The notes under the pieces were generated by a model. That model made no database searches, was not told the origin of the DNA, and saw nothing but the letters and a program-made list of their open reading frames with translations. Positions 6,455 to 49,585 of a stretch of 64,000 nucleotides of DNA are shown one piece after another. Each line of letters begins with the position of its first letter. The stretch's first letter is position 1. Made by a program: the position numbers and the translations under genes. The stretch spans positions 29,121,900 to 29,185,899 of the forward strand of contig OX419341.1 in the NCBI GenBank assembly GCA_948470475.1, read 5' to 3'. This DNA comes from Galaxea fascicularis (lineage: Eukaryota > Cnidaria > Anthozoa > Scleractinia > Euphylliidae).

Positions 6455-9400
6455 ATGTCGTCTACAAAGAGGGATTCGCATGTTTATATTCAAACAATCC
6501 TTTGCGTACTCTTAGCCCTCATTTTCAGTGCGTTATTTATTAGAATGGAGTTCAAAACAGCACAGTATGAGGAAAGGTTGCAAAGTATTGAGGAATCAAA
6601 GATGAACTGTTGTGATAAAGGTGAGTATCTTCACCATTTTTAACGCTGTTTACTCTTCTATATAGGGCTCGAGTTAACCATGCGAAAAAATGTCCAAAAC
6701 TCCTTATTGCAAGTCAAAGAAAAAAGGAAAAAGAAACGTTGCCAGGATAGAGTGGCAATGATCACACCCAAGAATCCACAAACTCAAATATTACGACCAC
6801 AACCATGATGTGCAGCACTATAATAAACTGCGCCACATGAAGAGGAATGCACTGCTCGATTTGTCCTTTTTTATTATATTCATGTTACAGGATTTAATCC
6901 GCAGAAGTTGCAACTACTTTGTATTGCATAGCAAGCCGGCGGCACAGGAAGGTAGTCAGTGCTGTAAATAGAAGAAGCAGAATTTCTGATCTTAAAAATT
7001 TAGAGTCGATTGGCACATCTTTCAAAATTACATTGATATAGAACATTGCCAAAATAATTTAAGTAAAAGAACCAAAACAAATTAATGAAGTGGCAAAAAG
7101 GTCATTCATGATAAGATAACGGACGTACCGAGCGAAAAGTTCAGAGAGGCCGGAAAGAAACAATGTTGTTAACGTAACTATGTGAGCTTGTTAACTGGTC
7201 GGAGGAATAAATTGAAATAAAATCATCGAAATGAAAGGACGGGTTGTAAAGGTGACTTGGTTGAAGGCCGGAATAAGTCATCTCTTTTTCACAGAATAGA
7301 GCCGTTGTTTCGCAAAAAAGCCTTAAAGCCTTACTGTTTCTCCAATGTTTTGTTTAACTCACGTAAGGATATTTTTTAACGTTGCCTGCTGAAAGAAAGC
7401 TAGTGTCGGTACTCGATGATTATGTTAACAGAATAACCTGAGGTAAGTGGTTGCTTTTAGCCACTGTAATGTGAGTTTCGCTTCTGGCTAAAATGTCACC
7501 AAAAGCAACTAGTGTCAAGAAACACCACGTGTGCTATATGGAGGGAATGATTTATTGTGATATGAACGACCTCAGGGACGTACGCAGGATTTTGCAGACT
7601 GGAGGGGTGTTACACCACGCCTCATTGTACCGAAAGAGTCAGTCACGTTTGAACGTTTTTCTCCAAGGTACATAATTTCAATAACGGCGAGAGAGAGGGA
7701 TCGTCCGAACCCCCTCGAACCCCCCCCCCCCTTCCCCTGCGTACGCCCCTGACTCTTTTTACAAGAGAAACATCCTTTATTATATTCATTTCATGTGGTT
7801 TCTCGTGGTTTGGTGGCATAGGCAGAAGCCAACCGCCGACCGGTTGGCTCGATTGGCAGAGTGCCGGACTACCGTGCGGGAGGTCGTGGGTTCAAGCCCC
7901 TCAAGGTCTTTAGATTACTGAGGAGAAAGTGTTTCCTTTGCAATGATATCTGCAAATGGTTAGACTTTCTTGTCTTCCCGGATAAGGACAATAAACTGGA
8001 GGTCCCGTCTCACAACTCTTCACAATTAATTCTGTGGGATGTTAAAGAACTACTAGGGACGTAACGAACCCTGGCTGTGACCACCCCTAGTGCTTACCTG
8101 TGGGCATGGGACCTATGAGTCCAGTTCGTGCTCATCCCCACTGGGCAGGTCTGTTGTCCAGTAAAAGCTGGTAAATATATAAATAAGTTCAGCGATTGAA
8201 TAAGCGGCACCATCAGAATTAAAGAACAAAACTGATGAAGCAGTATCTAGCTTCAGTTCCATCACAGGAGACTGATGCTGTGCGAAAGAACATCCCAAAC
8301 ATGATTTGTATTTGAATAGCTTTTATTCTTGCAGACTTGGGCTCTAAGAAACTACCTGGAGGCCGCACCAGTCGATCTCTGTCCAACGGAAATTCAATTA
8401 CCTCTGAAATTCAACAGGAAATAGCGAGCGCTGTAACGTACGCCATCAAAGCTTTCTGTGTCTCCGACGCCAATTCAAAAATGTGTATCAAAGGAGATAC
8501 TGGAGAAACAGGGGCACAGGGCGTGAAGGGAGATCGAGGTCCCAAAGGAGACCCGGGTCTACAGGGTCAACAAGGACCACAAGGAATCATGGGTATAAAA
8601 GGCGAAAAAGGGGACCAATGTAAGGGGTGTGTAAATGGAATATTGAATGAAAATCCTTCTGCTAGACAAAGCCTGAGATCAGATCAAGCGATTAGCACCC
8701 CTGGAATCATTGTTACACCTGCTATGCAGACGGTATCAGAAAACAAGACGGTGAAATTCACGTGCTCCAGTCGGGGATATAACACAGCTGTGGTAACTTG
8801 GAGAAGACTTGGAAAGCCGCTGCCCAAAGATAGGATTCTCACTGGGGAGTCTGGGGTGTTGAAGATCAAACGAGTGGTGTTTGCTGATAGTGGCTTGTAC
8901 ATGTGCACTGTCAACAGTCCCTCGGGAATTGCTCAAGCCACAGTCAAACTTAGAGTTCAAGGTGGGCTTGGCTCCTATCACGCTTAATACACCTGAACAA
9001 ATTGCGTCTTAGCGTTCTGGAAGTTTTGAATGGAGTTCCTGGCCCTCAGTTCTAGTTTTTTAGCTCCTGCTCTTAACTTTCAGTTTGGAAAGCGAAGTAT
9101 TTCTTGACTCAAAATCAAATATATTGGCTTACCCCAGGCATTTTTAGTTATGCTGGACAAGTAAAAACCTCTGACCCAAAGATTAGCTGTAGTTTTTGCC
9201 GTCTCATCTTGCACCACATCATATTTGTGGGCCAATAATTTCATTGGCCAGCCACCTCAGACAGATTTAGAAAGCCAACATTGGCAGCATTATCCTTCAA
9301 CAAACATATTAAGAACCGGCGCTGGTATGTTTGTTTTCCAGCCTCCCCTCGTGTTTACGTTGATCCAGGACCAACTTTCGTGAAAAGAGGTGAAAATGCG

Positions 9401-11355
9401 ACTTTACCAACCTGCCGTGTGATAGGTTTTCCTCCACCAGTTGTCACATGGGCTAAGGTACTTGGAAAACTACCACGTGGGCGAACGTTGATTAGAGGAC
9501 GAAGCGTGACCATAACGCGCGCAGAAAAGGAGGATACTGGGAGTTACATTTGTAAGGCGTCCAGTCCTGGAGGTTCCTCACGAGTGGTTACTCAGCTGGT
9601 TGTGACAGTAGTGCCCAGGTTTATCGTCACCCCAATGCCTATGATTGAGAAGTTTGCTGGGACTTCCGTAAGAGGCTTTCGGTTTATTATATAATACATT
9701 TTACACTTCCGGTATAACAATGTTTCGAAAAAAATATTTTGCTATAACACATGGTTCTTTAGTCTTAAGTCTGTGAAGAAACGCTTTGATACGCTCTGAC
9801 TTGCCCCTATGTTTTCCAGCTTTAAACAGCGCTTTCTGTTATTTCCTTCTTCCATGTAGTATTGGCGGATTCTTTGAATTTTCAGAAAATTGTTTCCCCA
9901 TAACTTTGATCTGATGCGCATCGTGATAGCACCAGAAATCGTTACAAATTCTTCCTCTGTTTCCGTTATTCCTTTATTTCAGAATGTTTTTCATCAACTC
10001 AAAGGTATATTATTTTATTGGTTAAAACCAAGGATAAGAAAGTTAGCCTGTTTATGAGCTCAGTACTTTATTTCTGATTAATGATTTACTGTTTATCCAC
10101 TGTTTTATTTTTATTTATTTTTTTTTCTTGTCCAATCAATTACAGATAACAATTAATTGCACCGCAACTGGGGATCCTGAACCCACAATTACCTGGGAGC
10201 CCATTTGTACAGGAGAGCTGCCAAGAAAGAGACTGGACACTACGGAAAATAGCTTGACCATCCGAGACCTGCGTACTAAAGATCAGGGCAAGTACGCATG
10301 TGTGGCAAGCAGTAGCCTTTTCCGAGCGCGATCAGAGTTTACTCTGCGAGTGAAGACAGGTTTGTTAGCGAGTTACATCGCTGTATTTATTTTGGTGTAA
10401 TTTTGAAAGAAGACGAAAGCCGGTAAGTTGAATCTCCTTGTCAACCACAAATACCATCATCCGAAGTAATGTGCGTCAAATTCCAGCCATATGAAGAGGC
10501 GTCACTTGAGCAGGCAGTTTTGGATTCAGTGTATTCAATATTTCAATCCAAATCCATGGCATAGCTGTCTCGCGATCAATTTCCTTTATTCATATTCAAC
10601 AACATTTTTTACCTGCAAAACAAAAAACTAGAACAATTCCCGGTTACAATTACAGTGGCTTGATGCATAAACCAGGCAGTGAACCCTTTTGTTTTTCTTA
10701 TTGCCTTTTAGCACGTGACTGTTCCACTTTGTATTCGTCGGGCGTGCGCACTAGCGGTGTGTACACGATCAACCCAGACGGGCAATCTACGTTCCCAGTC
10801 TTCTGTGATATGCACACTGACGGCGGTGGCTGGACGGTCATTCAAAGGAGATTGGACGGGGCCACAAATTTCTTCCGCGACTGGGATGCGTACAAGCGTG
10901 GCTTTGGTGATCTCGCAAGGGAGTTTTGGCTCGGAAACGACAAAATCAGTCGCTTTACCAAGGCCATACCTACAGACTTGCTCGTAGAAGTGTCAGACTG
11001 GGAAGGAACGACGGTCATCGCTAAATATGGAATTTTCCGCGTTGCTAGCGAGTCGCTAAAGTACGAACTTACCGTCGGTTCGTACTCAGGTAATGCCGGA
11101 GATTCGTTGTCTTATCACAATGGTTCGAGTTTCACTACTATGGACAGGGACAATGATAACAAAATTGGAGAGAACTGTGCTGTCAAGAACGTGGGTGCGT
11201 GGTGGTATAACAGCTGTTACGACTCGAATTTAAACGGTCAGTACATGAGTGCTGGAAAGACGGATTCTAAAGGAATAGTGTGGTATTACTGGAAGAAAAC
11301 TCTCCAAGTGCTGAAAACATCACAGATAATGCTTAAACCCAAATCCTCTGGTTGA
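6455..11355 (+). CDS. Type II membrane protein with collagen-like stalk, three Ig-like domains and fibrinogen C-terminal domain
   Basis: Complete five-exon gene: 6455-6620, 8335-8961, 9342-9667, 10146-10359, 10712-11355, all GT-AG, 658 aa. The start ATG lies in ACCATGT; an upstream in-frame segment was left out. Order: short cytoplasmic N-terminus, one hydrophobic membrane span (about 11-31), charged coiled-coil-like stretch, Gly-X-Y repeat (about 108-152, GDTGETGAQGVKGDRGPKGD onward), three Ig-like domains (about 175-440, each with paired Cys and Trp; the first two have DSGLYMC and DTGSYIC), then a fibrinogen-related domain (about 447-658) with CDMHTDGGGWTVIQRR, the calcium-site-like DRDNDNK and AWWYNSCYDSNLNG. 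Fibrinogen-related domains bind glycans or acetyl groups in ficolins, FIBCD1 and molluscan FREPs. A cell-surface recognition role is inference. A broken paralogue faces it at 12105-14700. Confidence 0.9.
7838..8165 (+). repeat. tRNA-derived SINE (family A)
   Basis: The tRNA-like head has a box A-like GGTTGGCTCGATTGGCAGAG and a box B-like GTGGGTTCAAGCCCC. A non-tRNA body follows containing TCCCGGATAAGGACAAT and GTGGGATGTTAAAGAAC. The same family occurs in reverse at 1915-2080. It sits in the first intron of the fibrinogen-related gene. The open frame at 7861-8064 is a translation of this repeat, not a gene. Confidence 0.75.
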
Positions 11356-12104: not shown

Positions 12105-13667
12105 TCATTTCGCTTTTGGTTTTAGTTTCATTTCACTTCCCAGGAGCGTGCTCCAATACCAGTTATAATGACTGTCCCCATAATTACTGTTTAGGCTTGA
12201 CTGACGACAACTATTGTACCACCAGGCTCCTCTGTGAGATTCAGCACAGTTTCTACTATTTTTATTATTATCCCGTTCTTTGGTACTGAAAGCCATACCA
12301 TTATGATAAGTTAGTCGATCCTTTGCTGTACCGGAATAAAACCCAACGAACAGAGTGTAGTTAGATGCTTCGTTAGTGACTGTGAAATTGCTGTACTTGG
12401 CGTATTTATTTCCATTGGATTTTGTCTTGATTTCTACTTGCAGCTGAGTTGGAATCTCCGTCAGTTGATGAATCTTTTCATTTCCAAGCCAAAATTCCCC
12501 TCTGACATCACCAAATCCGTGCTTGTACTCGTCCCACCCCTGGTAGAATCCAACAAACCCATCAAAGCGTTTGTGAAAGACTGTCCATACGCCGCCATCT
12601 GTCTTCATGTCACAGTACACTTCAAAACTGGTTTTGTTCATTGGGTTTACTGTGTACACTCCATTCTCCTTGAAGCCAACAGAAAGCAGCTCGGCGCAGT
12701 CACGAGCTGTAGATACAAGAAAAACTAATCAGTAGATTTAAAAGTAATGTAAAGGCATAGTGCTATAATAAGACCGGTTGGGAAGAAATTTCACTGTTGA
12801 GTGCTTGAGCGAATTATGAATAGTGCCAGCGATTGATCAGTAAGGAATGATGACGGCAATCAAAAAACGAAAATGCTTGTGAGCTATCCAGGAACTAAAT
12901 TACTATGAACGGCATTAAAAAAAACAAAAAATTACGGTGTGGTCTTAGATATCGCCCTTTCCGTAGTTGGAACTGATTCATAAAGGTAGGTTCAAGTAGA
13001 GCTGCTCGGTCAGTTCTCACTCCTTTCCGAGTTCCCTTTTCAGCGTTTCCTGGCAGATCGGTTAGTTGCACATTTAACCGGCCAAAACCTCACTGAAACA
13101 GTTACATAGTAACTACTCAAATGGCGGGAAGGGGTGGTCTCAATTTTTCATTTGAATTGTCCATTGAGTAGGCCCTTGGGTCTGGGGGCCGATCCGGGGC
13201 GAGGACATTACAGCTAGAATAAACACATTTCGACACTTATTGTCTCCTTTTAGTTCATAGTCATGCAGTGTATATGTCATTGAATTTAAAGAATTAAACA
13301 CTATTTACCAGTCTTGACTACAAGTTGTACTTCAGTCTCTACGTACTCAACTCGCTCCTACCAGAACAGGTATAGATACCATTGTCTTCAGCTCTCAAAC
13401 TACTGATCCTCAGTTGTCCATCAGACACGTGCGTTCGTCCCTCTGCTAGGTCTCCTTTGCATCGTGACCACGTGATGATAGGTACGGGGTGACCGTCAGC
13501 CGAGCAGTTCAGTGTGACAGACTGTCCGACATAACGCACGATCTTTTCTGGCGGCTTGACTATGATCAATGTTGTCATGGCGTGAAATAAAGAGCGATAC
13601 AAAGAAACATTTCCCATAAGCTGTCCTTTCCTGAGACTCTTTCCAAATTGTGATAGTTGATCATTCT

Positions 13668-13744
13668 AAATTAAACATATGATGCCTGATTTGAATGGAA
13701 GATGTGACATCTTCCATTCAAATCAGGCATCATATGTTTAATTT
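13668..13744. repeat. Perfect 37-bp inverted repeat with 3-bp loop
   Basis: Left arm 13668-13704 and right arm 13708-13744 are exact reverse complements around a TGA spacer. It lies in an intron of the decayed fibrinogen-related copy, directly before a second long palindrome. Confidence 0.9.
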
Positions 13745-13747
13745 ATT

Positions 13748-13880
13748 TTGTCCTTTAGATAATCAGATAATATAAGCTCAGATGGTTCTCCTCAAAGGAA
13801 TAAGTTACTTCACCTCCTTGGGAAATAGTAACTTATTCCTTTGAGAAGAACCATCTGAGCTTATATTATCTAAAGGACAA
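13748..13880. repeat. Long inverted repeat (about 54-bp arms) with short loop
   Basis: The arms begin TTGTCCTTTAGATAAT and end ATTATCTAAAGGACAA. They match except for an 8-bp AGATAATC duplication in the left arm and one substitution. The loop is about 16 bp near 13811-13826. It sits 3 bp from the preceding 77-bp palindrome. Confidence 0.9.
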
Positions 13881-14705
13881 TTTTAACCAAAAACGAGATG
13901 AATGTAAATCTCAAGTTATTCACTTTTCAATCTGAATCAGCCGGCGTTCTAAATTTTTTAACATGATTCGCGCTTCAAGGAAGACAAAATCACCTCTGTC
14001 AACTCTTGGCTCGTAACACAGAAACAACAAGAAGCAGACAAAAAGAATATTTTAAGTGTTACCCTGGATGTTGAGTGTGACAGCAGCCTGTGACGTTCCC
14101 TTTTCAGTCCGAATCGTACACACGTAGATACCATTATCACCGGCCATCACATTCGGGATATGCAGAGCTCCTTTAATCACGGTAGATCTCCCAGCGGGAA
14201 GAGAGCCGTCCTCTTTCGACCAGGTGACTGTCGCCGCACCGTTTTTCTCCGACGAGCACTGGAATGTGGCTGACTGGTTTAAGGTGACAGTCCTTACGGC
14301 CGGCTAAACTACAATCCCAGGGGCTGAAATAACATCTCCCGGCTGCCTCCTAAAAGGCTGCACGGACGTTGGAGTCAGTGAACTTGCCTCCCCGGGGTCA
14401 CCTTTTGGGCCTCTTTCCCCCGGGGCTCCTGGAGGTCCTTGGGGTCCCTGAGGTCCTCGTGGTCAGCTATCATCCGGAGGCCCCTGTACGCAAATCTGTC
14501 CCTTTCTGGTACAGATTTTTTGCGTGGAAGTGTAGACAGCTTTGTTGATTTGTTTTTGTATCTCTGACGCTAAAGAGTTGGTTTCTTCCTGTGAGGATCT
14601 CACAGCTCTAGTATCTCGATGTTGCGCTGAGAGGGAGGAAGAGCCAATATTCGAGGAAGTACTTGCAACGAGAATTAATCTCATTGATTTCTCCATCATT
14701 CTGAT

Positions 14706-15857
14706 TAAAGCGGGGTTATACCATAACCCCTTTACTTGAAAACGCTTTTGACTAAATAGATGACACTAGCGACTTTGTTATGCGTTCATCATCATGGACA
14801 AAAAACTACGGCTGTGTATCATAAATCAGCATCAGGTCCCAATTTTTCAAAAGCGTTTCAGAAGCAAGGTGATTCTCGAAGGCTTTCACTGCAACACGCA
14901 AGGGCTTCAAAAGAAGTTGTAAAACATTTTTAAATTCGTTATGTGAAGTTAGTGTGATGATAATTTAATGACCCAAAAATCATGTGTTGTGTGTATGTAG
15001 CAAGGTGAAGAATTCACTTACACACAGCACCTGTAATTACGAATTAGTAAAAACCAAAAAGTTGTACGTGGGATTAATAAAAGTGGATTGTATAGGAGAA
15101 AAATAAAATCACCTAGGATTTGTACTCATTTCCCTAAAAGGATACAGTTACATGTCTTAACGTTTTGTTTTTATAATCGATCACATATTCACAAGGGTCG
15201 TTTTAACAAACATAAGTAAGACGGTAACTTTTCAATTAATTAAATTAAGCTGAAGAAAAAAAAAAAAGAAAATTAATAAAAGAGGTTTGCCGCAGCGGTT
15301 AACACAAACTGATTTTCTATTGTTCCTTGAAAAAAAATCTTCTTGTTTGATTCGAAGTGAATTTTCTTGTCAGTTCCATGAATATTTGTTTTAGCAATGT
15401 TCCTTTAAAGTTGGTAAGCGAGGGTTTGTCTCTTTCCTTCTTCAACTTTTTAATACCCAATAGTGATCAGTATCTAATTTCTCATCACAGTCGTGAAGAT
15501 GGGCTGCCATCGCGCCGATATCCCATAGCGAAAAGCACCGTTTGAAGTAAAAACAAGACGAAGAAAGGTCAGCTGAACTGAATCCGACTCTCCTTTGTAT
15601 CGGTACCAGATGCGGCATACTATTGTTGCTGTGTTGATTGATTTTGCAAAGAGCTCCGGCTGTACACATGGTATCCGCGTTTTGATCGCCATCTGTGGTG
15701 AAATGTTTGATCTCTCTGATCTCTGACCTCGTCAGTAGCCCGGTTAATCTGTAAACAAGCTTTTTCCTGGTTTTACCTAAATTTTAGGAAGAAATTATGG
15801 TTCCATCACTCAAACAAAGTGAGTAAGAACTGAACCTTGTTTCAAGGATGGTTTCTT
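14706..15857. other. Intergenic region, nothing recognised
   Basis: AT-rich sequence with short overlapping open frames on both strands (for example 15357-15545 and 15442-15692). None has a recognisable domain. Confidence 0.4.
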
Positions 15858-16034
15858 TTATTCTTTCTTTGGGTTTAGCCTTTGCTGTTCTTGCAGAGCT
15901 CTGATTTTCTCTCGCTGAGTTCTCAGTTCCAATTCCAGTCTTGCAAAGCCAACACTAAAGAGAAGGACGCTGAGGAACGTTAGATAACAGCAGCCCACAA
16001 CCAGGGGGGAACAACCGCTAGCACCAGCCGACAT
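15858..16034 (-). CDS. Small single-pass membrane ORF; possible detached first exon of the decayed receptor
   Basis: An ATG at 16034 opens 58 codons: short polar start, one hydrophobic segment (about residues 10-33, LVVGCCYLTFLSVLLFSVGF), then a charged helix (LELELRTQREKIRALQEQ) and stop. The layout copies the N-terminus of the intact receptor (membrane span then charged coil). It lies upstream of the decayed copy in the right orientation. No GT donor follows the helix before the stop, so it cannot be spliced simply. It ends 37 bp from the Harbinger insertion. It could be a real small protein, a dead exon or chance. Confidence 0.4.
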   Translation of the reverse strand: MSAGASGCSPLVVGCCYLTFLSVLLFSVGFARLELELRTQREKIRALQEQQRLNPKKE

Positions 16035-16320: not shown

Positions 16321-17535
16321 ATGCGTGTGCAATCCAACATGGCGGAAAGACAAAGAGCACTGACTCAAATGGTACTGCTTTTCGATGAATTATTCGACAA
16401 TACTTTTGAGGATGAATTGAAGCAAATAAGCAATGGTGGGGCAGAGGATACCATGCTACTTGTTTTGCTGGGAAACTGTTGTCCTCTCGCAAAACGGGTT
16501 AGGATAGTAGGATATTTTGATGTCGTGATACCAAGTTACAGTCCGAGCTGCTTTCGGAGTCATTTTCGCATGAGTAAGGAGAGTGTTTCCTTCCTTGAAG
16601 GTCTGCTAGGCGGTTGCCCAGAGATCCCTTATGAAGCCCACGGCCACGGAGGTAGAGCACCAGTGGAGCTTAGGAAGCAAATCCTCATAACCATTTGGAT
16701 TCTAGCGAATCCCGAGTGTATGAGATCGGTATCAGATCGATTTAACATTTCCTTATCAACGTGCTATGAAGTCTACAAGCGAATATGTACGGCGATTGTG
16801 GACAACTTTGCGCACCAATTTATTCACCTCCCAGAAGGAAATGATGTAAGGAGCACCATTCAAAAGTTTGAAGAAAAAAGAGGATTTCCTGGAATATTAG
16901 GAGCTATTGATGGGACTCATATCCCTATCAAGGCACCCACCAGAGACCCTGAACAATACATAAACAGAAAGGGATTTCATTCTGTACAGTTACAGGTTGT
17001 ATGTGACATGGATATGAAGTTCCTAGATGTGTTTTGTGGATTTCCTGGGTCCGTCCATGATGCCAGGGTGTTTAGAAATTCTCCATTGTTTATTGATGCC
17101 GAGAGAAACAGAGATCTGTTGTTTCCTGGTAGTTCTCATTTGATAGGAGATGCTGCCTATCCTCTGAAGCCTTGGATTTTGACACCTTACAAGAACACTG
17201 GTCGCCTAACCAGGCAACAGTCATGCTACAATTTCATTCACAGCTCAACAAGAATGGTAGTTGAGAGGTCACTGGCATTGCTGAAAGGCAGATTTCGAAA
17301 GCTGAAAACATCAATGCTTAAACAGAGAATTCAGGATGTACCAGTAGTCATTGTTGCAGCATGTGTACTGCACAATATCTGTTTGATGACTGAAGATGAT
17401 ATTGATGATTTCCTGGATGGAGATGATGGCAATGACAGTGATGATGATGATGATGATGGTGCAGATGGATTGTTTTATTTTCCTCGAGACATACTAGGAG
17501 AAGACAAGCGTCGTGAAATTACAAGGACTCTATAA
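16321..17535 (+). CDS. HARBI1-like DDE nuclease (Harbinger transposase)
   Basis: Intronless 404-aa protein; a second ATG at 16339 (ACATGG context, 398 aa) may be the true start. It catalyses excision and insertion of the element. The DDE triad is visible: D197 in LGAIDGTHIPIKAP, D247 in PGSVHDARVF and E315 in RMVVERSLALLKGRFRKLK. An N-terminal helix-turn-helix-like region (about 105-160, with SDRFNISLSTCYEVYKR) precedes the DDE_Tnp_4-type core. The C-terminus is acidic (Asp-rich, about 360-385). No stops or frameshifts. Animal Harbinger nucleases need the element's Myb-like partner, encoded here at 19293-20210. Confidence 0.93.
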   Translation: MRVQSNMAERQRALTQMVLLFDELFDNTFEDELKQISNGGAEDTMLLVLLGNCCPLAKRVRIVGYFDVVIPSYSPSCFRSHFRMSKESVSFLEGLLGGCPEIPYEAHGHGGRAPVELRKQILITIWILANPECMRSVSDRFNISLSTCYEVYKRICTAIVDNFAHQFIHLPEGNDVRSTIQKFEEKRGFPGILGAIDGTHIPIKAPTRDPEQYINRKGFHSVQLQVVCDMDMKFLDVFCGFPGSVHDARVFRNSPLFIDAERNRDLLFPGSSHLIGDAAYPLKPWILTPYKNTGRLTRQQSCYNFIHSSTRMVVERSLALLKGRFRKLKTSMLKQRIQDVPVVIVAACVLHNICLMTEDDIDDFLDGDDGNDSDDDDDDGADGLFYFPRDILGEDKRREITRTL

Positions 17536-19292: not shown

Positions 19293-20210
19293 TTAATCAC
19301 TGGAATCTGATTTGTCAACTGATCTCTCAAAAACCTGCAGAAATCTACCCATCATGGCCATTTTCTCTGTGTGCATTTCTTTAAGCTCTTGCATTCTTTC
19401 CTTTTCCCTTTCTTCACGTGTTTTTGTAAAGTCTTTGAACAAAGTCAGGAGATCATCACCTGCTTTTGATTTCCTTTTTCGTTTTTTGGGAACATCATCA
19501 CTTTCTGATTCACTGCAGGTAGCATCCTTGTCACATGAGGACTCTGTGGGTTTCTTAGTACCAGCACGGCTGCTGCAAACTGCAACAGGCTTAATACGTA
19601 CATCCTTCTCAAACAGAGCATTCAGTTCATCAAAGTAAGCACAAGTTTTGCGGTCATTTCCGGAGGTGTTGTTATGATCAACTGTATTGGTATATGCTCG
19701 CTTCAAGTTTTTGAACTTACTTTCGCAATCCCCAGGACTACTCTTATCATTGAATCCTAACTTTTCCATTTCTTTACCTATAGTCTCCCAAATATCTTTA
19801 TTTCTCTTTTTTGGATCTTTGAAATCATCCCGCATGTTTCCATATATATCCAGCAGTGCAAGGACTTCTTCTTTTGACCACATTCTCCTTCTAATCATGT
19901 TACCAGAATTCCCTGATGAATGACTTGATGGTCCATCTTCACTGTCTGTGCTTACAGATCCTCCACCACAAAAACTGACTGGACTAGGAGTGAGTGAACG
20001 TACACCTGCGGTACTGGTTCTACTTGAAGTGCTCTGTGGAGGCCCCAGTTCTTGTGGAAGAACCGAACATTGTGAAGAAGGCGATTGATGTGGTGGAACT
20101 GATTGTTGCGGTGGCACTGAAGGTGTATACTGTGCATATGGATTCAAATTAAACCAAGATGGGTCCTCAGACCAGTGATACTGGTTCCACATTTTCAGCC
20201 TTAAAAACAT
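19293..20210 (-). CDS. Myb/SANT (trihelix)-like Harbinger partner protein
   Basis: Intronless 305-aa ORF (second ATG at 20192). The first about 110 residues are rich in Pro, Gln and Ser. A Myb/SANT-like trihelix domain follows (about 108-195: RRRMWSKEEVLALLDIYGNM, DIWETIGKEMEKLGF, CESKFKNLKRAYTNT). Then come a basic stretch (PKKRKRKS, a likely nuclear signal) and a charged helical C-terminus. In Harbinger elements this protein carries the nuclease into the nucleus and binds TIR motifs; vertebrate NAIF1 is a domesticated relative. It is convergent with the nuclease gene and open throughout. Confidence 0.88.
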   Translation of the reverse strand: MFLRLKMWNQYHWSEDPSWFNLNPYAQYTPSVPPQQSVPPHQSPSSQCSVLPQELGPPQSTSSRTSTAGVRSLTPSPVSFCGGGSVSTDSEDGPSSHSSGNSGNMIRRRMWSKEEVLALLDIYGNMRDDFKDPKKRNKDIWETIGKEMEKLGFNDKSSPGDCESKFKNLKRAYTNTVDHNNTSGNDRKTCAYFDELNALFEKDVRIKPVAVCSSRAGTKKPTESSCDKDATCSESESDDVPKKRKRKSKAGDDLLTLFKDFTKTREEREKERMQELKEMHTEKMAMMGRFLQVFERSVDKSDSSD

Positions 20211-20954
20211 AAGAGTGCATGCATTTGTTTAAAAGGTTGCTTGACATTTTTTGGCCGCTCAAAGATGGGTATCACATAGGGTATAGACAAGGGTATAGAC
20301 CTCTTTCATGATGGTGGCCAAACAAAATACCCTTTTGTTTTTATACTAATGAGCCCTTCTTGCCTCGCTAGGACGTGCAAATTTCAAAAGAATTTTTGTT
20401 CTAAAATGAGGTCAGTGGGTCTAATTTACATGTATACAAAAGAATAACAAATTGGTCGCCCATTTATGAAAGTGGTCTGTTCATCACAACATGCAACAGA
20501 AAAAAGTTGAGCGAGATTACTTCACAACTCCGTGCACACTTTATGACACTTCCGGTTGGATTGTTTTGTATGTACTGTGCGGAAATTTGCAAAATATTTG
20601 TATTTTGTATACGTTGTCCCACAGCAGATCATAATTGCAAAGAAAACTTTCTGTATCTGGTTTCCCGCGTGAAAATAATGGAAAAATACTTTCTGTATCT
20701 TGCTTCTCGAGTGAAAAATCGGGTTAACTTCAATGACAGGAAAGACTCGTGAAACGTCTCTCATGATCATTGGACCAGACTAGGCCCGTGAAGTACCTTA
20801 TGGTGGAACTTTCACGAATGTGAAAATAAAGAATATCGAATTTATGGACTTGAAATACACTCACGTTAGAAACAACTCCGCCTGCTCCCTGTCCTTTCGT
20901 AGGTGAAATGACGAGCTTTCTTCGCGCCTATGCGTGCGCACAAATCAGCGGTTG

Positions 20955-23314: not shown

Positions 23315-24400
23315 TCACACGGTGGATTCATCAGGTTCGGCGGCGTCGTCCAGGTCTTTCGTTTCGCAATAATATTTTCTGGTTTCTGGCATAAGCTTTG
23401 GATCCTCTAATTCGCAGCTTCTTTCCACATTAATATCGACTACTTTCCTAGTTTTCCGAAGTTTAAGGATTCTTTTAAACTCCATTTTGAAGTCCTCGTT
23501 CATAAACGCTATAATAAAAGGCTTAGCAAAACAGGAAGAGTTTAGAATAAGTGTACTTAATAAATAAAGTGAGCGGGGAAGGCAATATTCATGTGTGAAG
23601 GCATCAGTTAGATCGCAAACGTAACTTGGTACCCAGAAAACAACATTTCCGAGTATAAGCGCTGCAAAGAGTCTTGTGATTCCCTCTTCTTCTCTCCACG
23701 CGCTGATATTTACCATTCGTCCTTCCTTCGCGCGAAGCTTAGCAGCCTTATACGTCTTCTTCACATTAACTTCAGCGCTACAGAAACATGTCGCGATAGC
23801 ACAAAACGGCAGAACCGTGAATGTGAGTTTTAGTATCGACCCTTGGAGATACGTGTCGTTTGTTACTTGTTCTCTGCAGGTGCCGTAACCTGGGTGGAAC
23901 ACAAAGTTATTTCCTGTGATTGTGAAAGACAGAGGTACTGCGAACGAGATGAGCCAAGAAACTGAAAGCGCGCCGCAGACGTATTTTCTCTTGAATAAAG
24001 TCAAGTACTGAGCCAGATGGGCAATAGCGATGTATCTATCTATAGCCGTCATGGTCATAGTTAGAACTGTCTCAATACCAAGTACAGAGATAAAGATGCC
24101 TTGAAACTGGCACAATGCTGTACTAGACGATATCCATTCACCCCTTATGAGGACACCAAACGTAAAAGGCATCACGAGTAAGGATTTAATCAAATCAATG
24201 ATTGCATATGACAGAATGTACATGTGAATAGTGGAACGGAGTCGAGCGTTCCTGTATATCACCAGGCATATCATTAAACCAGACGCAAATCCTGCTGCGG
24301 TCAAACATCCACTGATTATGCTTTCTGTGACCACGGTTTCTGTACATCTGTTACGAAGGGCTGTTTGAAGATCGCTTGATCCGTCTTCGTGCGCGCACAT
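23315..24400 (-). CDS. Class A (rhodopsin-like) GPCR with altered TM7 motif
   Basis: Single-exon 361-aa seven-helix receptor; the ATG at 24400 is chosen over an upstream non-ATG extension. TM2 has D in AIIDLIKSLLVMPF. TM3 ends in the intact DRYIAIA motif. The extracellular disulfide cysteines are in ALCQFQG and GTCREQ. TM6 has FWVP. Two usual anchors are changed: TM1 has ASGLMIC where GN is normal, and the TM7 NPxxY is KPFIIAF. The basic C-tail follows MNEDFK. It resembles the melatonin/opsin-related orphan receptors expanded in cnidarians. The ligand is unknown and cell-surface G-protein signalling is inferred. It is divergent from the GPCR at 27987-29018, 3.6 kb away. Confidence 0.88.
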   Translation of the reverse strand: MCAHEDGSSDLQTALRNRCTETVVTESIISGCLTAAGFASGLMICLVIYRNARLRSTIHMYILSYAIIDLIKSLLVMPFTFGVLIRGEWISSSTALCQFQGIFISVLGIETVLTMTMTAIDRYIAIAHLAQYLTLFKRKYVCGALSVSWLISFAVPLSFTITGNNFVFHPGYGTCREQVTNDTYLQGSILKLTFTVLPFCAIATCFCSAEVNVKKTYKAAKLRAKEGRMVNISAWREEEGITRLFAALILGNVVFWVPSYVCDLTDAFTHEYCLPRSLYLLSTLILNSSCFAKPFIIAFMNEDFKMEFKRILKLRKTRKVVDINVERSCELEDPKLMPETRKYYCETKDLDDAAEPDESTV

Positions 24401-27400
24401 TTTCAATTATAAATGTTCTTTCTCTAAACTCGTTTTTTTCGCAAAATGCTGCGCGATCGTTATATATCTCGTCGTGTAATACCTTTCCGTTGACTTTTCA
24501 GTGATGATGTAAAATTCAGCTGACAATACGTATACTATCCACTAAGCCTCAGAAAGTTTGAAGATAAAGCTTTTTTTCGCGTTCTGGCTCCTTTATCAGC
24601 ACCGCATTTGCTTTTCTTGCCACCTCTAACAAAGGCTTTAAGCCCAGTTTTGACCTTAAAGAAGTATCAAGTGCCTAACGATCGCTTTTTCTTGACGTTT
24701 AAGTTTTGAATTGACGCTTCTGATCTCGATTGCAAAAACGCTGATTAATATTCATCAGGTATGGTCAACCAGAAGCTACCTGAACAAAGGTTTCACCTGC
24801 TTCAAGAGTCACATACAGAGTTTGTTTACACGAGAGGGCCTATAGCGTGCTTCTCAAAATGTTTGTTTTCACTACCAACTTCGTCATTAAACTGCGAGAG
24901 TATTCCTGAGGACCATCTTCCAAGCGACCACACTAGTAGTGTTGAATTGAAGGAAAAGAACTATCGTAACTCCCTTATGAGACAGTTACATGTGTATGTA
25001 GTGGTGGGGATGTTCGAATGACTTTATAAATAACCTTTGAAAGCAAAAAGGCTCTACTAAATTTTTGTGACTTTCCTTCAACTTGTGACCACAGTGACTT
25101 ATATTGGTTGAAGATTTAATAGCCAAGGAGCGTTGCTAGTGAGTGAAAGTTGGAAGGCCTCTTTCAATATTTATGGCGAAAGTACAAAGCGCTTTTTTTA
25201 TGTTTAACGAGTCGCTTATATTTTTATAGAATTAAGGGGGTGTTACACCTGAACGCCATTTTTCCGCCACTTGACATGGCTTTAATGAAAATATCTCGTT
25301 CACGTTTCAAGTAATCCAAAAACCCACTCATTATATCGTGAATCTGTCTTGTGGGGTATTTTGTGAATTCTTGGGTGATTTTTGGGTATATTTGGGAGGT
25401 GTAGTTATTTCTAGAGAGATTGGTAAAATTGAGAAATAAGAAATATTGAAGATTTAGTGAATTTGTAGTTAATAATTAATAGACGGACACCAAGTTAGTC
25501 CACTGGCGACCTGGGGTGCTCTTGCGTGGGTGTCACCTGTCTGTTAGTGTTCCAAAAATCATTTTCTTTCTTCTATCCCTTCTTAAAACCTCTTCAAATT
25601 TCATTCAAATTCAGGTGTATCGCCCCCTTAAACGTTTATGTAAATACGGTCGGTGTCGATATCGTTCGTGTGAATTATGCAACGGCCAGTTCTGAAGAGA
25701 AACTTGACACGGAAAAGTCTAAAACAAAACAAAACAAACTGTATACTACGAAAAACCTAATGAAAATATAATCAGACCTAATATCCTGACCTGAATCATT
25801 ACTAGGAAAGCGAAGAACATAGTTCGTAGAGAGGACCCCCTCTACGAACCATGCGAAAAATTACCGCGCGCTCCCTCCTCTTGATTCCAGTCTCCTCTCA
25901 CTTTCTAACAAATTGAAAATCAGGACTGGGTACAAGAGTGCTGGTGATTGTCAAAGAATAAGAGATTTCTGTTCCTGGCGTATCCAATTTTTTTCTTTAC
26001 CATTACCGGCCTGTATCAAAGAAATACTGAAGGTCTCAGGTGAATGGAAAATGAGTGAAAATGCAAATGACAATGTAGACTTAAACGCAAGAGATTGGAG
26101 TTTGATCCCTTAGCAACGCGACGTTACACGAAAAAAAAAATTGAAGAGTGGAGCAATTTAGTCATATACTTATAGAATTTTTAAATAATTAGAATAGGAA
26201 AAAAGACAAATTAAAGGCAGTCAAAAGAAGGAGTCCATTTTGAGGTGTCTCCCACTTTAGTCTCTATTGTTATTCTAGATTTCACAAGACGTAAAAAGGA
26301 GGCAAAATTTGGTGACGTTTCGTCCAATTTGGCTTGCCATATATGATAACACGCTAACAGGAAACAATAGTTTAATTGAAGCGCTTATTTTGCATGAGAG
26401 TTGCTTTAAGAAAGTGAATGTGTTTATTTGAAACGCTTCACGGGCTGAGTAGTTGTAAACATAAAACAAGGAAATCAGCTGCAAAGGACACCCTGACTGA
26501 TTGGGCTTCAGTTGCAAATTCAGGGAATATTCAGTTCTATGCAATTTTTTAATGACCTTTAATAACGCCTATCTTGATGACAACGCCTTCGCACTGCCTT
26601 AGCAAAATCGAAAATTAAAAAAAGAGGAAGACAAAACAAAGAAAGAAATAAAAAGGAAAACGACGTCTTGGTGCTTTTTCGGTTGATACGGTAACAAACT
26701 TTCGACGACTATCACAGGAATTCAATATCTAATTTCCAACTCAGATATAGCATTTCACAGTATTTCTCCTCGAACCATATCATAAGAAATTGACAAAGTG
26801 AAGTGAAACTGCGAAGTGTGGGGATTTTGTGACAGCAAATTCAACTCAACAACCAATCTCCAAGAAAAAAGTTTGTTCCGACGGACTTTGGACGGCGTGG
26901 GTTGAAACTACAAAAATACGGAAACAAAAATTACAAAATAATATTTACAAAAATAAATCCGACAAAAAGAAATAACAAATTTTGAAATATATACAATGAA
27001 AAGCTTAACACTTACACTGATACCGCCACAAAAAACCAAGAAATCGTTGCGGTAGCGGAACTGCACAAAAATAAAGACAAATTTGAACCGAAAAAAGGAC
27101 TACGTTTAGTGCGGACTGAAACTAATTGCCAAAAATATTATTTGCGATAGCGTTATATACAGCGATAAAATTATGCGGACAAACAACTAAAGAACATACA
27201 AAAAAGGTTCTAACGACGAGAAACAAGGCTAATGACTGAGTGAGAAATAACACAAACGACTTATACGAACTAAAAACAATTGTGCGCAGAAACTAACACT
27301 GAAAAGATCGAATAAGTTGTATGCAAAATTGCGAAAAAAACGAATAACAAAGAAAAGTCACACTTATAGATCTTACATGAAGTAAGCTGGGAAATTGGGG

Positions 27401-27986
27401 CGGCTCAATCATACACGTGTGTTTGTTTTTATCGCGTTAGGCTTAGACATACCGAGAATTTTTCGTCATTATACCCGTATAATGTAAAATCTAGAAACAA
27501 TTCCAGAGAGCAGATACTTAACAACATCACAAAAAACGAACGAACTCGGCGATAGTAGCCTCTAGCCCTGAACCAGCTAAACGCCCAACGACAGGATCAA
27601 CTGGAGAGCAGCTGCTTCGCCTCGAAACAGAAGAGCTGTTACACCTACTGGGTATTTACTGATGGTTTATATTCAAACGACAAGCTGATATTTACATTGG
27701 CAATATTAGTGATGACAGCTGAGGCGGCTGAGTTCGACAGGCTCTTTCCTTGTTATGTAGATGTTATCCAAATATCGTCTGGGAGTTAAGATTTTGTTTC
27801 ATTTCAGCGCTGTTACACTGACCAATCACAACTGTCAACATTGTCGCTTAAGACACTTGAATAATATATCTGTAATTGATTCAAATTCTGATAAAAAGGA
27901 AAAAAGGTATTCTTACTCGTTTTTGATCGCTATAATATTTCTTTAATTTTTATACCACGAACCGAACCGTGTTCCCAGACGCAAAA
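24401..27986. other. Intergenic region between two divergent GPCR genes
   Basis: Apart from a TTAA-flanked MITE at 25232-25631, I see no gene. Open frames at 24761-25021 and 26275-26544 have no domain or splice support. The region must hold both GPCR promoters. Confidence 0.45.
25232..25631. mobile_element. TTAA-flanked MITE, 392 bp
   Basis: Ends GGGGGTGTTACACCTGAA and TTCAGGTGTATCGCCCCC are inverted repeats of 18 bp with two mismatches. TTAA lies directly outside each (25232-25235 and 25628-25631). The TTAA duplication with purine ends suggests a Kolobok or piggyBac-type non-autonomous element. It is a different family from the TTAA element at 690-1139. Confidence 0.7.
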
Positions 27987-29018
27987 ATGTCTCATGAAGC
28001 TGACGAAAGAATGGTAAAGCTTGCCCAAGAGCTACTCAATCGCCAAGCACTTCTCGTCGTAGTTGAGTTCTCAGTTTGCGTTATAATTACCTCCATATCC
28101 TTTGTAGGCAATGGTTTCGTACTTGTCGCTTTATACAGAAATCCGAGGTTACGAAGACCCTCAAACCTATATATAATCTCGCTGGCACTGTCTGATATCA
28201 TTTTATCAAGTGTTGCCATGCCTTTCACTTGTGTCTCAGCTTTGGATGGGCAATGGATGTTTGGGGGAGCAATTTGCTGGCTTCAGGCGTCTCTAGCTAC
28301 AATGCTTGGGACCACATCACTAGCAAATATGGCGCTGATTGCCGCGAACAGACTGTTAAAAGTGGTTTATCCGAACATGCATCGGAAGCTGGTTTCTAAG
28401 AAGACGATATTGATCTCTATTTTAACCGCCTGGTGTTATACTGGAGCTGTTCCTCTGTCTCTTTACTTGACAGGAGTCAAAAATACGTTTCACCCCGGCC
28501 ACCTCGTATGCTTGTTTGATTTTAGCACGGCAAGTTACACACTTATTGCGTTAATTGCAATTTTTGAAGCTTTTATTACGTATCAAGTCATCTTTGTGTG
28601 TTATCTCAAGGTTTGGCACTTCCTTAAGAGACACAGCGTTCAAGTCTTCGCTTGGAATACAAATGCTGAAGACATTAAACGCAATCGTTTGTTAGCTTTA
28701 ATTGTGCTGACATTTACGGTTTGTTTCACGCCTTTTTTGGTGGTCATTTTGCTGGAAAGTTTTCATGAGCAGTTTTCCCTCCCCCGCCAAGTTTACCTTT
28801 TTGCCACCATAATGGTGGGCATTGCAAGCTGTGTAAACCCTGTAATTTACGGAATTATGAATACTGACTTCAGACGAGAATTTGTTACGATGTTTCAAGG
28901 AAGAAGGGAAAGAAGAATTGCAGCAGAGGAAGAGAAAAGAGCGCAGCGTCTACATCCAGCCCATATCATGTTAAACGACGTCAACACACAAATCGTATCA
29001 CAAACGATACAACAATGA
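27987..29018 (+). CDS. Melatonin-receptor-like class A GPCR
   Basis: Single-exon seven-helix receptor of 343 aa from the ATG at 27987; the frame is open six codons upstream but lacks an ATG. TM1 has VGNGFVLVAL, TM2 has LALSDIILSSVAMPF, and TM7 has NPVIYGIMNTDF. The TM3 DRY is replaced by NRLLKVVYP; an Asn in the first place recalls the NRY of melatonin receptors. TM6 has CFTPF where CWxP is usual. The extracellular cysteines are in AICWLQA and LVCLFDF. The short C-tail is basic and then Gln-rich. The ligand cannot be read from sequence; melatonin-receptor-like is a family resemblance, not a function. Confidence 0.9.
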   Translation: MSHEADERMVKLAQELLNRQALLVVVEFSVCVIITSISFVGNGFVLVALYRNPRLRRPSNLYIISLALSDIILSSVAMPFTCVSALDGQWMFGGAICWLQASLATMLGTTSLANMALIAANRLLKVVYPNMHRKLVSKKTILISILTAWCYTGAVPLSLYLTGVKNTFHPGHLVCLFDFSTASYTLIALIAIFEAFITYQVIFVCYLKVWHFLKRHSVQVFAWNTNAEDIKRNRLLALIVLTFTVCFTPFLVVILLESFHEQFSLPRQVYLFATIMVGIASCVNPVIYGIMNTDFRREFVTMFQGRRERRIAAEEEKRAQRLHPAHIMLNDVNTQIVSQTIQQ

Positions 29019-46300: not shown

Positions 46301-48420
46301 GCTATTCTCATGTATAATATTGAGAATGGTCAAAAAGGCTTAACATTCTTCCTTGATTTTCTCTCCAAGATGCCTCCTAACCGTGTTTTTGAAGCCTTTG
46401 CTTTCAGTCTTCTCAACTACTGGCAAAGTTTAAGAAAATTTCCCTTTCCGGAGCATTTTTAATCGTTTTCGTTTGTGTAATTTGGCTTACGAGTGGAAAC
46501 TCGGATAATTATATGCTTAAAAGTGTCACAGTTGAAAACAGATATTCGGTGGGAAAGGTTGGAAGTTGCAATTTTTGCAAGAGTTTTCCGTACCTTCTTT
46601 AAAGCGCTCTCCCTGAGCATGGGTCTTTTTAACTCTCTCCGATCCTGCCAGATCCACTAGATGAAATTTTGCTTTTCTAAATTCACTCCTAAAGAGAAAG
46701 AGTACAGTGTATTTCACAAATTGTAGCAGTTCATTCCTTTTTTCACTTCCTGGTTTACTCCTGGTTACCTCAATAAGTGAGTCTAGTCTATAGTTAAGAA
46801 TAAGTTGCCTTACATTTATAAATATAAAAAATAAAATAAATAAAATACCTTTATTTACACTCTGCAGTATTTATAGCACAAAAGCTAGTGGGGCTGAACA
46901 AATAGATGAAACAAATAACTCAAATTCATGAACATATTGATAACAATGTTAAAAAACAAACTCATAGGAGTGAACCAGCTGGCTTTTCACAAGCTTGCCT
47001 ACCTGTGGCCCTGTATACGCTCTGTGACATTGCCACAAGAGACAAGGCAGCAAGAACCACACCTAGACACTGTGCCCCATTGCCTATGAGATCCTGCTCA
47101 CAGATAATTTACAAGTGAGGTCAAGCCAGAGCAGGACCCGGTTGTCCAGGCTTATCCAGGATTAGCGTAAACTTTGGTTTCAGTTTTCTAATTTTTGGAA
47201 GAAAGTTTGTTATGCTGCTTTGTGTTTTCAGGATTGGTTTCCTTTATTGCAAAATTTTGCAGAATATCAGCATTGAACAACGTTTGGAAATAGAGAAAAA
47301 AAACTCCTTGGTTAATTTTTTATCTTGGGTTAGCGTTGTAATCGCCTTTTGAACAACCGGGCCCAGGACTTTAACCCAGGGCCTCCACATCACAAGTCCA
47401 GCTCTCTTACCACTCTGCCTCCAATAAAAAAAATGAATCCTGCATATTTTGAACATTACCCTTGCAGCTCCCTTTGCTCAAGTGTGACTGTAAAAATTGC
47501 ATGTGATCTACTGGATCGGCTGTTCATAGCTGTGGCACCAGTTGCCCTTGATGCTGAACCCTGCTCCAGGCACCTGACCATGTCTTCCCCAGATGTTACA
47601 ATTACTTCTTGTAAACCAGCAATCTAAGGCAAGAGGGAAAACCCTTACTGCATGACTCCAACAATACATGACTTCTAGACTCCAGTGCTCATCCATAACT
47701 TTTTAACAAAGTAGTCCAAGGGTTAGTGGAGTCTAAAATGTACTAGCCAAATCGTGTTGTTTGGTAGCCAATCATCATACTATCTCCAAAACTCTTCTAT
47801 TACAAGTAGCCCAGTGGCTAGTGGCTCTCAAATTTTACTAGTCCTGGGCTAGTGGACTACAGATAAAGTCGAGCACTGGACTCTGAGTGGTTCCTTACTT
47901 TTCTTTTCTACTCATTGTTTTCAATACTGAAATGTTCTCACAAGTGAATAAACCTCAACATATCAAATTGAACTTACAAGAACCTTCATGTGATGTATTG
48001 TTTCAATATTTATTGCCCTTGCTGAAAACAAAATGCATCATGTACAATGGACTGTCATCAATTTTTGAAGTAGGTGTACTGGTGTTGATGTGCAAAAAGT
48101 AGCAGTGGATTCCAGCTGCTGTGGTATCATCAATATCCTGTTTTTCCAATAAAATAACCTGGAATCTGACTCAAACTATCAAGAAGGCAATTCCCAGCAC
48201 ATTACCCATAGTGACAGCCCTCAGGTGATGCAAGCATTATCTTTTTTTTTTTATTACAGGTACTGCACCTTAAGTTTTCTAATTCTATAATGATACATAA
48301 AAGATTGCTTTAGATCATAATTATTTGCATGGGAATAGCACATTATAAATTTTATAATTATAACTTTATTATTACTGACATCATGGTTTTGTACATTACA
48401 AACAAAGGAGAAATAATAAC

Positions 48421-48459
<39 letters not shown>

Positions 48460-49374
48460 GTAGCATGTTTGCTATTAGTTATAATGAAAGCATCAACTGA
48501 AAGTGTAAGAGAAAAAGAATTTGCCATCACATCTATGCTTTGGAGGATTTTTCCTGTCCTTTATTTTAAGGTTCCTTATTTTTAAACTCTGAAAAATTAA
48601 TCACAGATCTCACCTTGATCCCGCCATCATGGGTTTCCCGAACAGCTATCCTTGATTCTTCTGTTTGGCAAGGATTTAACAGGTCATGGATTTCTTCATT
48701 GTGAATCTGCAAAAACAAATAATTGTACCATGCAGCTAGGCACCTCTTCGCCACTGTCCTAGCTTAAAGTTATATACCTTGGACTGATTATGCTTGATAG
48801 CAATAGGCCTGCTGGGCCTTGACGTATAGCGTTTCTGTGTCACACTGACATGAGCTGAGAGCTTACATGTACAAATAAATTATGGTATCACATTAAGGTG
48901 GTTAAATTTGAAAACTGTTTTCTTTTATGGTACGGTGGGTATACGTACTTCTAAAAAAGACGCCTTAAGTAAGAATTCCGTTTTATCTTTCCTTTGGTCG
49001 ATCCATTCGAACATCGTGTTGATTAGACGAGGAATAACCCCTCTTGATTCATCCGTTTCGTTGTTCGTGGTAAAGGCTGTTCCCATGGAGAAAGTCTTGC
49101 CAGATCCTGTCTGCCCATAAGCTAGAACCGTTGCATTATAACCTTTAAAAAATCCCTCAAGTAAAGGGATCACTGTTCTGGTGTAAAGATCCTCCTGTTT
49201 GCTAAAGGTTTCGAACACATAATCATACGTGAAGGCTTTGTGATCGCCGATTACAACTTGTGGATGCCCTGGAATACATCGAATGCACTCTTTACATCCA
49301 TCGCCGATTTCCTTTGGAACGAGCGGTCTTATTCTTAGGGCCACACGCACAGGAATGGTCTTCTCCTCTGGCAT
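30883..49374 (-). CDS. KIF4A: Chromokinesin KIF4 (kinesin-4 family), complete, 32 exons
   Basis: Plus-end microtubule motor for chromosome condensation and the anaphase midzone. Exons (high to low): 49374-48949, 48706-48614, 47623-47460, 46688-46594, 46174-46052, 45772-45597, 45253-45186, 45002-44873, 44529-44452, 43247-43189, 42563-42470, 42067-42014, 41447-41217, 40809-40709, 40196-40124, 39847-39773, 39371-39261, 38721-38638, 38530-38408, 37387-37235, 35980-35883, 35837-35734, 35161-35082, 34611-34522, 34064-33972, 33720-33652, 33568-33524, 33338-33276, 32565-32368, 32251-32138, 31901-31850, 31310-30883. The total is 1314 aa and every junction stays in frame. Motor domain: GQTGSGKT (87-94), [14 protein letters not shown]. 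Long coiled coil from about 360 to 1030. Cys-rich domain at 1118-1155 ([14 protein letters not shown], then four more Cys), the KIF4 Fe-S site. The basic tail has KKKRK. Human KIF4A is slightly shorter. One intron appears to use a GC donor. Confidence 0.94.
33234..33258. repeat. (TTTA)n microsatellite
   Basis: About six copies of TTTA in a KIF4 intron next to the exon at 33276-33338. Confidence 0.85.
34152..34495. mobile_element. MITE with GGCCTCGTTTATA ends in KIF4 intron
   Basis: Inverted ends of about 45 bp, starting AGGCCTCGTTTATATGAAGA and ending TCCTTATAAACGAGGCCT, enclose about 338 bp. The interior alternates GTTGGCTCGGCT/AGCCGAGCCAACTT words in both orientations. Flanks are TTA and TCA, close to a 3-bp duplication, which would suit a Harbinger-type MITE. 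Confidence 0.65.
36360..37150 (-). mobile_element. Degraded non-LTR retrotransposon 3' fragment (CR1/L2-like)
   Basis: On the minus strand, the reverse-transcriptase C-terminal part is recognisable: [46 protein letters not shown] deletion and frameshift follow (near 36830). In another frame comes [14 protein letters not shown] and [11 protein letters not shown]. The element ends at about 36360 in a short tandem tail of CTATCCTACTA units, as CR1/L2 elements often do. It is 5'-truncated, cannot make a working protein and lies in a KIF4 intron in the gene's own orientation. Confidence 0.75.
37590..37830. repeat. Repeat rich in CGTCCCGGGATGAG words
   Basis: KIF4 intron sequence with several TCCCGGGA palindromes and GTCCCGGGATGA/TCATCCCGGTC-like words in both orientations. 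It is probably a MITE remnant; exact ends were not resolved. Confidence 0.4.
41787..41977 (-). repeat. Short palindromic repeat rich in GTCGGACAT, copy 2
   Basis: In reverse orientation this matches 4665-4860 across most of its length. Its outer ends are GGGCTGCAAATAAT and GTTATTTGCAGCTG, an inverted pair. It sits in a KIF4 intron about 50 bp before the exon at 42014-42067. Confidence 0.65.
42756..42940. repeat. CGGTTTTCGGTTT-rich repeat
   Basis: Degenerate array of GGTTTTCGGTTT / GCGGTTTT words, ending in a run of C. A related stretch in the opposite orientation lies at 63175-63465 (AAAACCGAAAACC words). It is in a KIF4 intron and non-coding. Confidence 0.5.
48420..48457. repeat. (AAT)n microsatellite
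   Basis: About twelve uninterrupted AAT units in a KIF4 intron. Read on the minus strand it gives the false poly-Tyr frame at 48254-48466. Confidence 0.9.
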
Positions 49375-49585
49375 GATCTTTCTTTCCGAGTGGATGAAAC
49401 CGATAACTTTAAGACAAAACAATCAAGAATATTCGAACTGTGAATAAATTTCTTTTGGTCTCTTGAATATAACCGCCACAAACATTATTACCCAGAGATC
49501 TCTTCGCACCTTTAGCCAGCCAGCGGTTGCCACCATGAGACTCGTGCCCAGGTTTCGTTCTGAAAAAGAGGAGGTGGAGAGAAAA
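49375..49585. promoter_or_regulatory. Probable bidirectional promoter of KIF4 and small plus-strand gene
   Basis: 211 bp separate the minus-strand KIF4 ATG (49374) from the plus-strand ATG at 49586. If both are genuine starts, this interval must hold both 5' UTRs and a shared promoter. No TATA box was recognised. The inference rests on spacing alone. Confidence 0.4.

Follow-up and report, generated by a model that had tools for sequence, protein, structure and literature searches.

The locus at positions 6455–11355 (+) of the window, the stretch of 64,000 nucleotides of Galaxea fascicularis DNA that was analysed here, raises the question of what a gene that joins a membrane span, a collagen stalk, three immunoglobulin (Ig) domains and a fibrinogen domain encodes, and how such a protein would work. 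Joining the five exons by script gave a single intact frame (phases 0, 1, 1, 0 and 1) of 658 residues followed by a stop, in agreement with the original prediction of a complete five-exon gene of this length. All four introns are GT...AG, the donors GTGGGC and GTTTGT being weak matches to the consensus. Exon 1 (6455–6620, +), placed by splice site and hydropathy and aligning with the N-terminus of the Oculina protein P0002, contains the start, a short N-terminal tail, the membrane span and a juxtamembrane segment. Exon 2 (8335–8961, +) encodes a linker with the furin-like motif RTSR (residues 66–69; codons 8364–8375, +), a second segment with two cysteines, 14 collagen Gly-X-Y triplets with no lysine in the X position (residues 109–150; 8493–8618, +), a CKGC directly after the collagen (8619–8630, +) and Ig1. 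Exon 3 (9342–9667, +) harbors Ig2 and the beginning of Ig3, exon 4 (10146–10359, +) the remainder of Ig3, and exon 5 (10712–11355, +) the fibrinogen-like domain (residues 445–655) and the stop.

A Pfam-A search with the 658-residue product returned Fibrinogen_C at residues 445–655 (E value 3.4e-77), Ig matches in three stretches (Ig_3, 2.5e-40) and Collagen at residues 108–150 (1.1e-07; its 32.0 bits exceed the cut-off, which is 27.2), and the Kyte-Doolittle hydropathy of the product reaches a maximum of 2.45 at residues 11–29 (6485–6541, +). The predicted order of span, collagen, three Ig domains and fibrinogen domain was thus recovered by profile search and hydropathy, with the N-terminal span in the first exon where it had been expected. 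The tail ahead of the span holds Lys5 and Arg6, which is consistent with an N-inside topology.

Ficolins, which have neither Ig domains nor a membrane span, share the collagen stalk and the fibrinogen-like domain with the window gene; they carry the MASP motif, whereas the window gene has three Ig domains and a span and lacks the motif, and its plan is not the ficolin one of collagen and fibrinogen alone. Molluscan FREPs, which are secreted and contain no collagen, share the Ig and fibrinogen domains. FIBCD1, which has neither collagen nor Ig domains, is likewise a membrane fibrinogen protein. The ectodomains of the membrane collagens known as MACITs are largely collagenous and bear no Ig domain or fibrinogen head.

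The original prediction had presented the union of three such plans in one polypeptide as a new combination. It is instead the defining plan of the CniFLs, the cnidarian ficolin-like proteins, which are already in print (PMC5094078), and a novel domain combination is thereby ruled out; the gene is an additional member of this established anthozoan family. According to that paper, which attributes the first CniFL report to the Aiptasia genome paper, the criterion for a CniFL was the joint presence of Collagen, Ig and Fibrinogen domains in a gene, and sea anemone transcriptomes contained the domain set, which was examined by PCR for two of the species; the legend to its Fig. 4 gives mostly one transmembrane domain (TMD) and three Ig domains and includes Acropora digitifera in the species list. 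In the window gene Collagen (PF01391), an Ig-clan domain and Fibrinogen (PF00147) all occur in one gene, with one TMD (by hydropathy alone) and three Ig domains (by Pfam). As described in PMC5094078 and PMC7654579, CniFLs are multi-copy anthozoan proteins that unite collagen, Ig and fibrinogen in a single polypeptide, in which one TMD and three Ig domains are usual. The plan found here is identical to theirs, and what is noted in addition is a furin-like motif, a subgroup with no lysine in the collagen X position and a replaced acetyl pocket. A word look-up in the main text of these two papers returned no instance of furin, convertase, lysine, acetyl or shed, and our literature search found no paper that combines CniFL with furin.

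Relatives were drawn from the best 120 of 365 proteins found, 7992 candidates having been scored. The closest proteins among the matches listed were Collagen, Ig and fibrinogen proteins of Oculina and Actinia; the Oculina patagonica models P0001 (64% over 89%) and P0002 (41% over 97%), which have identical domains, were the best relatives listed, and the corals Oculina and Montipora were the nearest named ones among these matches. In a 26-row tree of fibrinogen domains, built with CniFL-type anthozoan proteins from the search rather than the published CniFL sequences, the window gene, P0124, Montipora and two Oculina rows group at 100/99. P0124, whose domain is 98% identical to that of the window gene, joins the gene and Montipora at 97/93. 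By itself this grouping points to an anthozoan host, probably a stony coral. Support drops to 83/78 at the deeper fork that brings in Actinia P0003 and P0004, and P0006–P0010 and P0012 fall outside it. The Oculina models G018308, G018317 and G018323 lie on contigs of one stated length, 33.96 Mb, which suggests clustered copies.

How would such a protein work? Taking the explanation as a whole, with release and the lack of complement recruitment included, we consider it fairly probable that the gene encodes a coral-type CniFL that acts as a trimeric membrane lectin, releasable by a furin-type protease and without MASP recruitment through the ficolin motif. Helical segments and the collagen stalk would hold three chains together, and the trimer would sit in the membrane with its N-termini inside and its C-termini outside. 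The three Ig domains of each chain may serve as a spacer that holds the fibrinogen-like head outward, where it would bind glycans or further ligands, of microbial or self origin, close to a calcium site. A proprotein convertase could then cut after RTSR, in the region between span and collagen, and one product would have two states, a cell-surface receptor and, once released, a trimer in solution that would coat its target. As recruitment of MASP through the ficolin motif is improbable for the window copy, the output would be clumping, coating or engagement of a partner receptor. The predicted role as a pattern-recognition receptor fits the domain plan, which is that of a recognition receptor. 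For the family, the "three plans in one" receptor turns out to be an established anthozoan type that gains testable mechanisms, namely furin-type release and a division into copies that have the lysine by which ficolins bind MASP and copies that lack it.

The linker between span and collagen carries the argument for release. In an alignment of 12 proteins the linkers hardly align, and R66 is the sole nearly invariant column between the start methionine and the collagen. RxxR is present in 10 of these 12 first-set linkers, that of the window gene included, where shuffles predict 6.3 (P = 0.011); P0007 reads RIRK and P0009 RVRK in its place, and R or K stands at P1 in all 12. A second set of 12 further proteins was fetched after RxxR had been fixed as the pattern, and seven of them have the linker segment (P0121, P0122, P0124, P0125 and P0174 lack it and were left out of the count). 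All seven contain RxxR (1.4 expected, P = 5e-6); five of the seven are closely related to the window gene, and P0025 and P0029 have no listed Pfam fibrinogen match. Over both sets RxxR was found in the span-to-collagen linker of 17/19 rows, the window gene included (7.8 expected by shuffles), and RxxR or RxxK in 19/19 (12.5 expected, P = 1e-4); these rows include near kin, with five coral exon-2 frames and the five anonymous proteins P0006–P0010, and the shuffling takes no account of relatedness. The stricter RxK/RR occurs in 8 of the 19 (1.9 expected), the window gene not among them, and the looser R..[RK].[VILMS], framed after the first set, matches 12/12 linkers there (4.9 expected) and 6/7 in the second set (1.5 expected). 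For the linker of the window gene taken alone, RxxR arises by chance in 14% of shuffles.

Membrane collagens carry predicted furin sites in the same place, for example RTAR and RIAR, some of them low-scoring, according to PMC4678570, where furin release is termed well established for collagens XIII, XXIII and XXV and a furin inhibitor is reported to have lowered COL-99 in the medium by about 70%. With these MACITs (XIII, XXIII, XXV and COL-99) the window gene shares a short tail, a span, a segment of coiled-coil type, an RxxR (RTSR) located between span and collagen, and the collagen itself; the likeness is one of working, not of kinship. Because RxxR (17/19) and RxxR or RxxK (19/19) both exceed the shuffle expectation, the CniFL receptor is probably shed from the cell, by analogy with collagens XIII, XXIII and XXV. 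The earlier description of the protein as membrane-bound is right as to the span, and with a furin-like motif behind it this is probably only part of the picture. That the receptor instead stays in the membrane for good, with the RxxR uncut, and serves recognition and uptake in the manner of FIBCD1 appears unlikely. The one clear span, the closest solved fibrinogen domain being that of FIBCD1 and the description of most CniFLs as TMD proteins (PMC5094078) would all fit such a receptor, and chance RxxR motifs are not rare in linkers of this kind, but the excess of RxxR over 7.8 expected rows and the position of R66 as the one nearly invariant linker column argue for cleavage.

The favored reading, a releasable trimer, also omits a complement function of the ficolin type, and here the collagen stalk is informative. 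We compared a subgroup of seven rows (the window gene, P0001, P0175, P0176, P0177, P0179 and P0182, of which the five from P0175 on were assigned by similarity and not by the tree) with the 12 other rows. Lysine at a collagen X position is found in 0/7 subgroup rows and 12/12 others, and GKxGP in 0/7 and 10/12 (P0006 and P0011 being without it). A proline precedes the GKxGP-type lysine in three of the 12 other rows (P0002, P0012 and P0025), and the full PGK-aliphatic-GP occurs in one, Oculina P0002. Conversely, a CxxC right behind the collagen is present in all seven subgroup rows and none of the 12 others; in the window gene this CKGC is a possible interchain disulphide knot. Since the subgroup has no lysine in the collagen X position, and the window gene itself has neither this lysine nor GKxGP, canonical MASP binding by its product is unlikely. 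The full consensus, confined to 1/12 of the other rows, leaves such binding unproven for most of those too.

A starter of the lectin-complement route, binding microbes and activating MASP through its collagen as ficolins do, has been proposed for CniFLs in two papers, PMC5094078 and PMC7654579, the latter arguing from their co-expression with complement genes, and the GKxGP of 10 of the 12 non-subgroup rows and the full motif of Oculina P0002 would suit it. For the window gene we regard it as improbable: all seven subgroup rows are without GKxGP or an X-position lysine, and PMC3179595 and PMC2592599 describe this lysine as essential in ficolins and MBL. A broader version of the favored reading, which we put forward tentatively and hold to be somewhat doubtful, is that CniFLs in general are dual-state proteins, anchored trimers that a furin-type protease would release as soluble opsonins, and that the coral subgroup may have lost MASP recruitment and remodelled its pocket beside an Oculina P0002 class that has the full MASP motif. 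The lysine split and the release bear on whether corals sort microbes by the lectin-complement route.

The fibrinogen domain has its best solved-structure match in FIBCD1 (4m7f, 3.2e-56), with tenascin and angiopoietin-related domains scoring just behind FIBCD1 and the ficolins. For many fibrinogen domains, tenascin and angiopoietin ones included, no lectin function is known. FIBCD1 binds calcium through Asp393 and Asp395 and grips the acetyl group by means of Tyr405, His415, Tyr431, Ala432 and Trp443 (PMC3908420). In an alignment of 19 domains both calcium ligands are kept in the window gene, as Asp591 and Asp593, and in every other domain except that of the broken neighbor copy; P0011, whose divergent domain lacks both aspartates in the alignment of 12, was excluded from the 19. 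By contrast with FIBCD1, all five acetyl-pocket (S1) residues differ, these being replaced with Asn604, Tyr614, Asp629, Ser630 and Thr641, respectively. Across the CniFL rows the pocket sites are highly variable, and some rows are gapped in the 431–443 loop, where residue placing is less sure. The ficolin control P0126 keeps the pocket save for Trp443, which is Tyr, while P0132, named ficolin-2-like, keeps just Tyr405 and Ala432; as ficolin controls vary too, an altered pocket is no proof of lost binding. We read the head as a retained scaffold with a changing ligand face, and with five of five acetyl-pocket residues replaced we take glycan binding by it as an assumption. The window and P0124 fibrinogen domains differ at 5 of 214 residues. 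Two of these differences, seen post hoc, fall at pocket sites, residues 614 (Tyr/His; codon 11218–11220) and 641 (Thr/Ser; codon 11299–11301), which match FIBCD1 His415 and Trp443.

The close scores of the tenascin and angiopoietin-related domains and the replaced acetyl pocket would also suit an epithelial adhesion or matrix protein that is no immune receptor. Such a role seems improbable as well, given that CniFLs are reported as over-expressed with Vibrio in Exaiptasia (PMC7654579) and that the presence of several copies, one of them decayed, fits immune-type turnover, though not exclusively. A recognition role specific to symbionts, which the original prediction had thought possible, is not supported, because CniFLs are present in non-symbiotic anemones, one of which has the highest count in PMC5094078, a paper that calls for functional tests; overall CniFL expression is higher in aposymbiotic animals according to PMC4840205, citing the Aiptasia genome paper, though one further paper states a CniFL role in symbiont recognition as shown.

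Exons 2 to 5 match Oculina P0001 at 45%, 75%, 75% and 79%, respectively, the exon 2 value reflecting a P0001 model without part of Ig1, and the gene is therefore not a product of chance. As the N-terminus of P0001 differs, seven further relatives were used to assess exon 1. Its match to P0002 has a z of 5.0 and none of 1000 shuffles scored as high, while those to P0003, P0004, P0006, P0008, P0010 and P0011 have z values of 1.5 to 3.0 and were equalled by 14 to 92 of 1000 shuffles; the membrane exon is accordingly well supported by one paralogue, P0002, and weakly by the other six. That two adjacent genes have been joined in error is very improbable indeed, for while the exon joins are based on splice sites and homology, not RNA reads, and the intron before the fibrinogen exon has the weak donor GTTTGT, the exon phases close, the Oculina models unite the same domains, and the published family reading frames were taken from transcriptomes and, for two anemone species, verified by PCR (PMC5094078).

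A second CniFL copy lies tail-to-tail with the gene at 12105–16034 (−). It has in-frame stops at about 14465 in the collagen and 14306 in Ig1, a frame break near 13350 in Ig3 and an open fibrinogen exon, and a search for its Ig2 exon found no match; these lesions rule it out as a working partner. In the fibrinogen-domain tree its sister is Oculina P0002 (100/100), and one of its calcium aspartates is changed to Asn. Inverted repeats at 13667–13900 (45 nucleotides at 98% and 39 nucleotides at 100%) occupy the site where its Ig2 exon would be expected and are perhaps a small mobile element.

Further features lie downstream in the window. A DDE_Tnp_4 transposase frame (16321–17532, +) and a Myb/SANT-like DNA-binding frame (19296–20228, −), about 1.8 kb apart, are presumably the two genes of a PIF/Harbinger-type transposon. 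Two long open frames of the rhodopsin GPCR family, apparently intronless, are located at 23318–24406 (−) and 27936–29015 (+), with 7tm_1 E values of 3.8e-29 and 1.5e-41, respectively. At 46529–49422 (−) a kinesin motor domain is found in two pieces in separate frames, which are probably exons. Finally, the region 51853–56148 (+) contains a 733-residue proline- and lysine-rich frame, for which Pfam gave no match at E 0.001, and behind it a frame that encodes two SH3 domains; the two possibly form a single adaptor gene.
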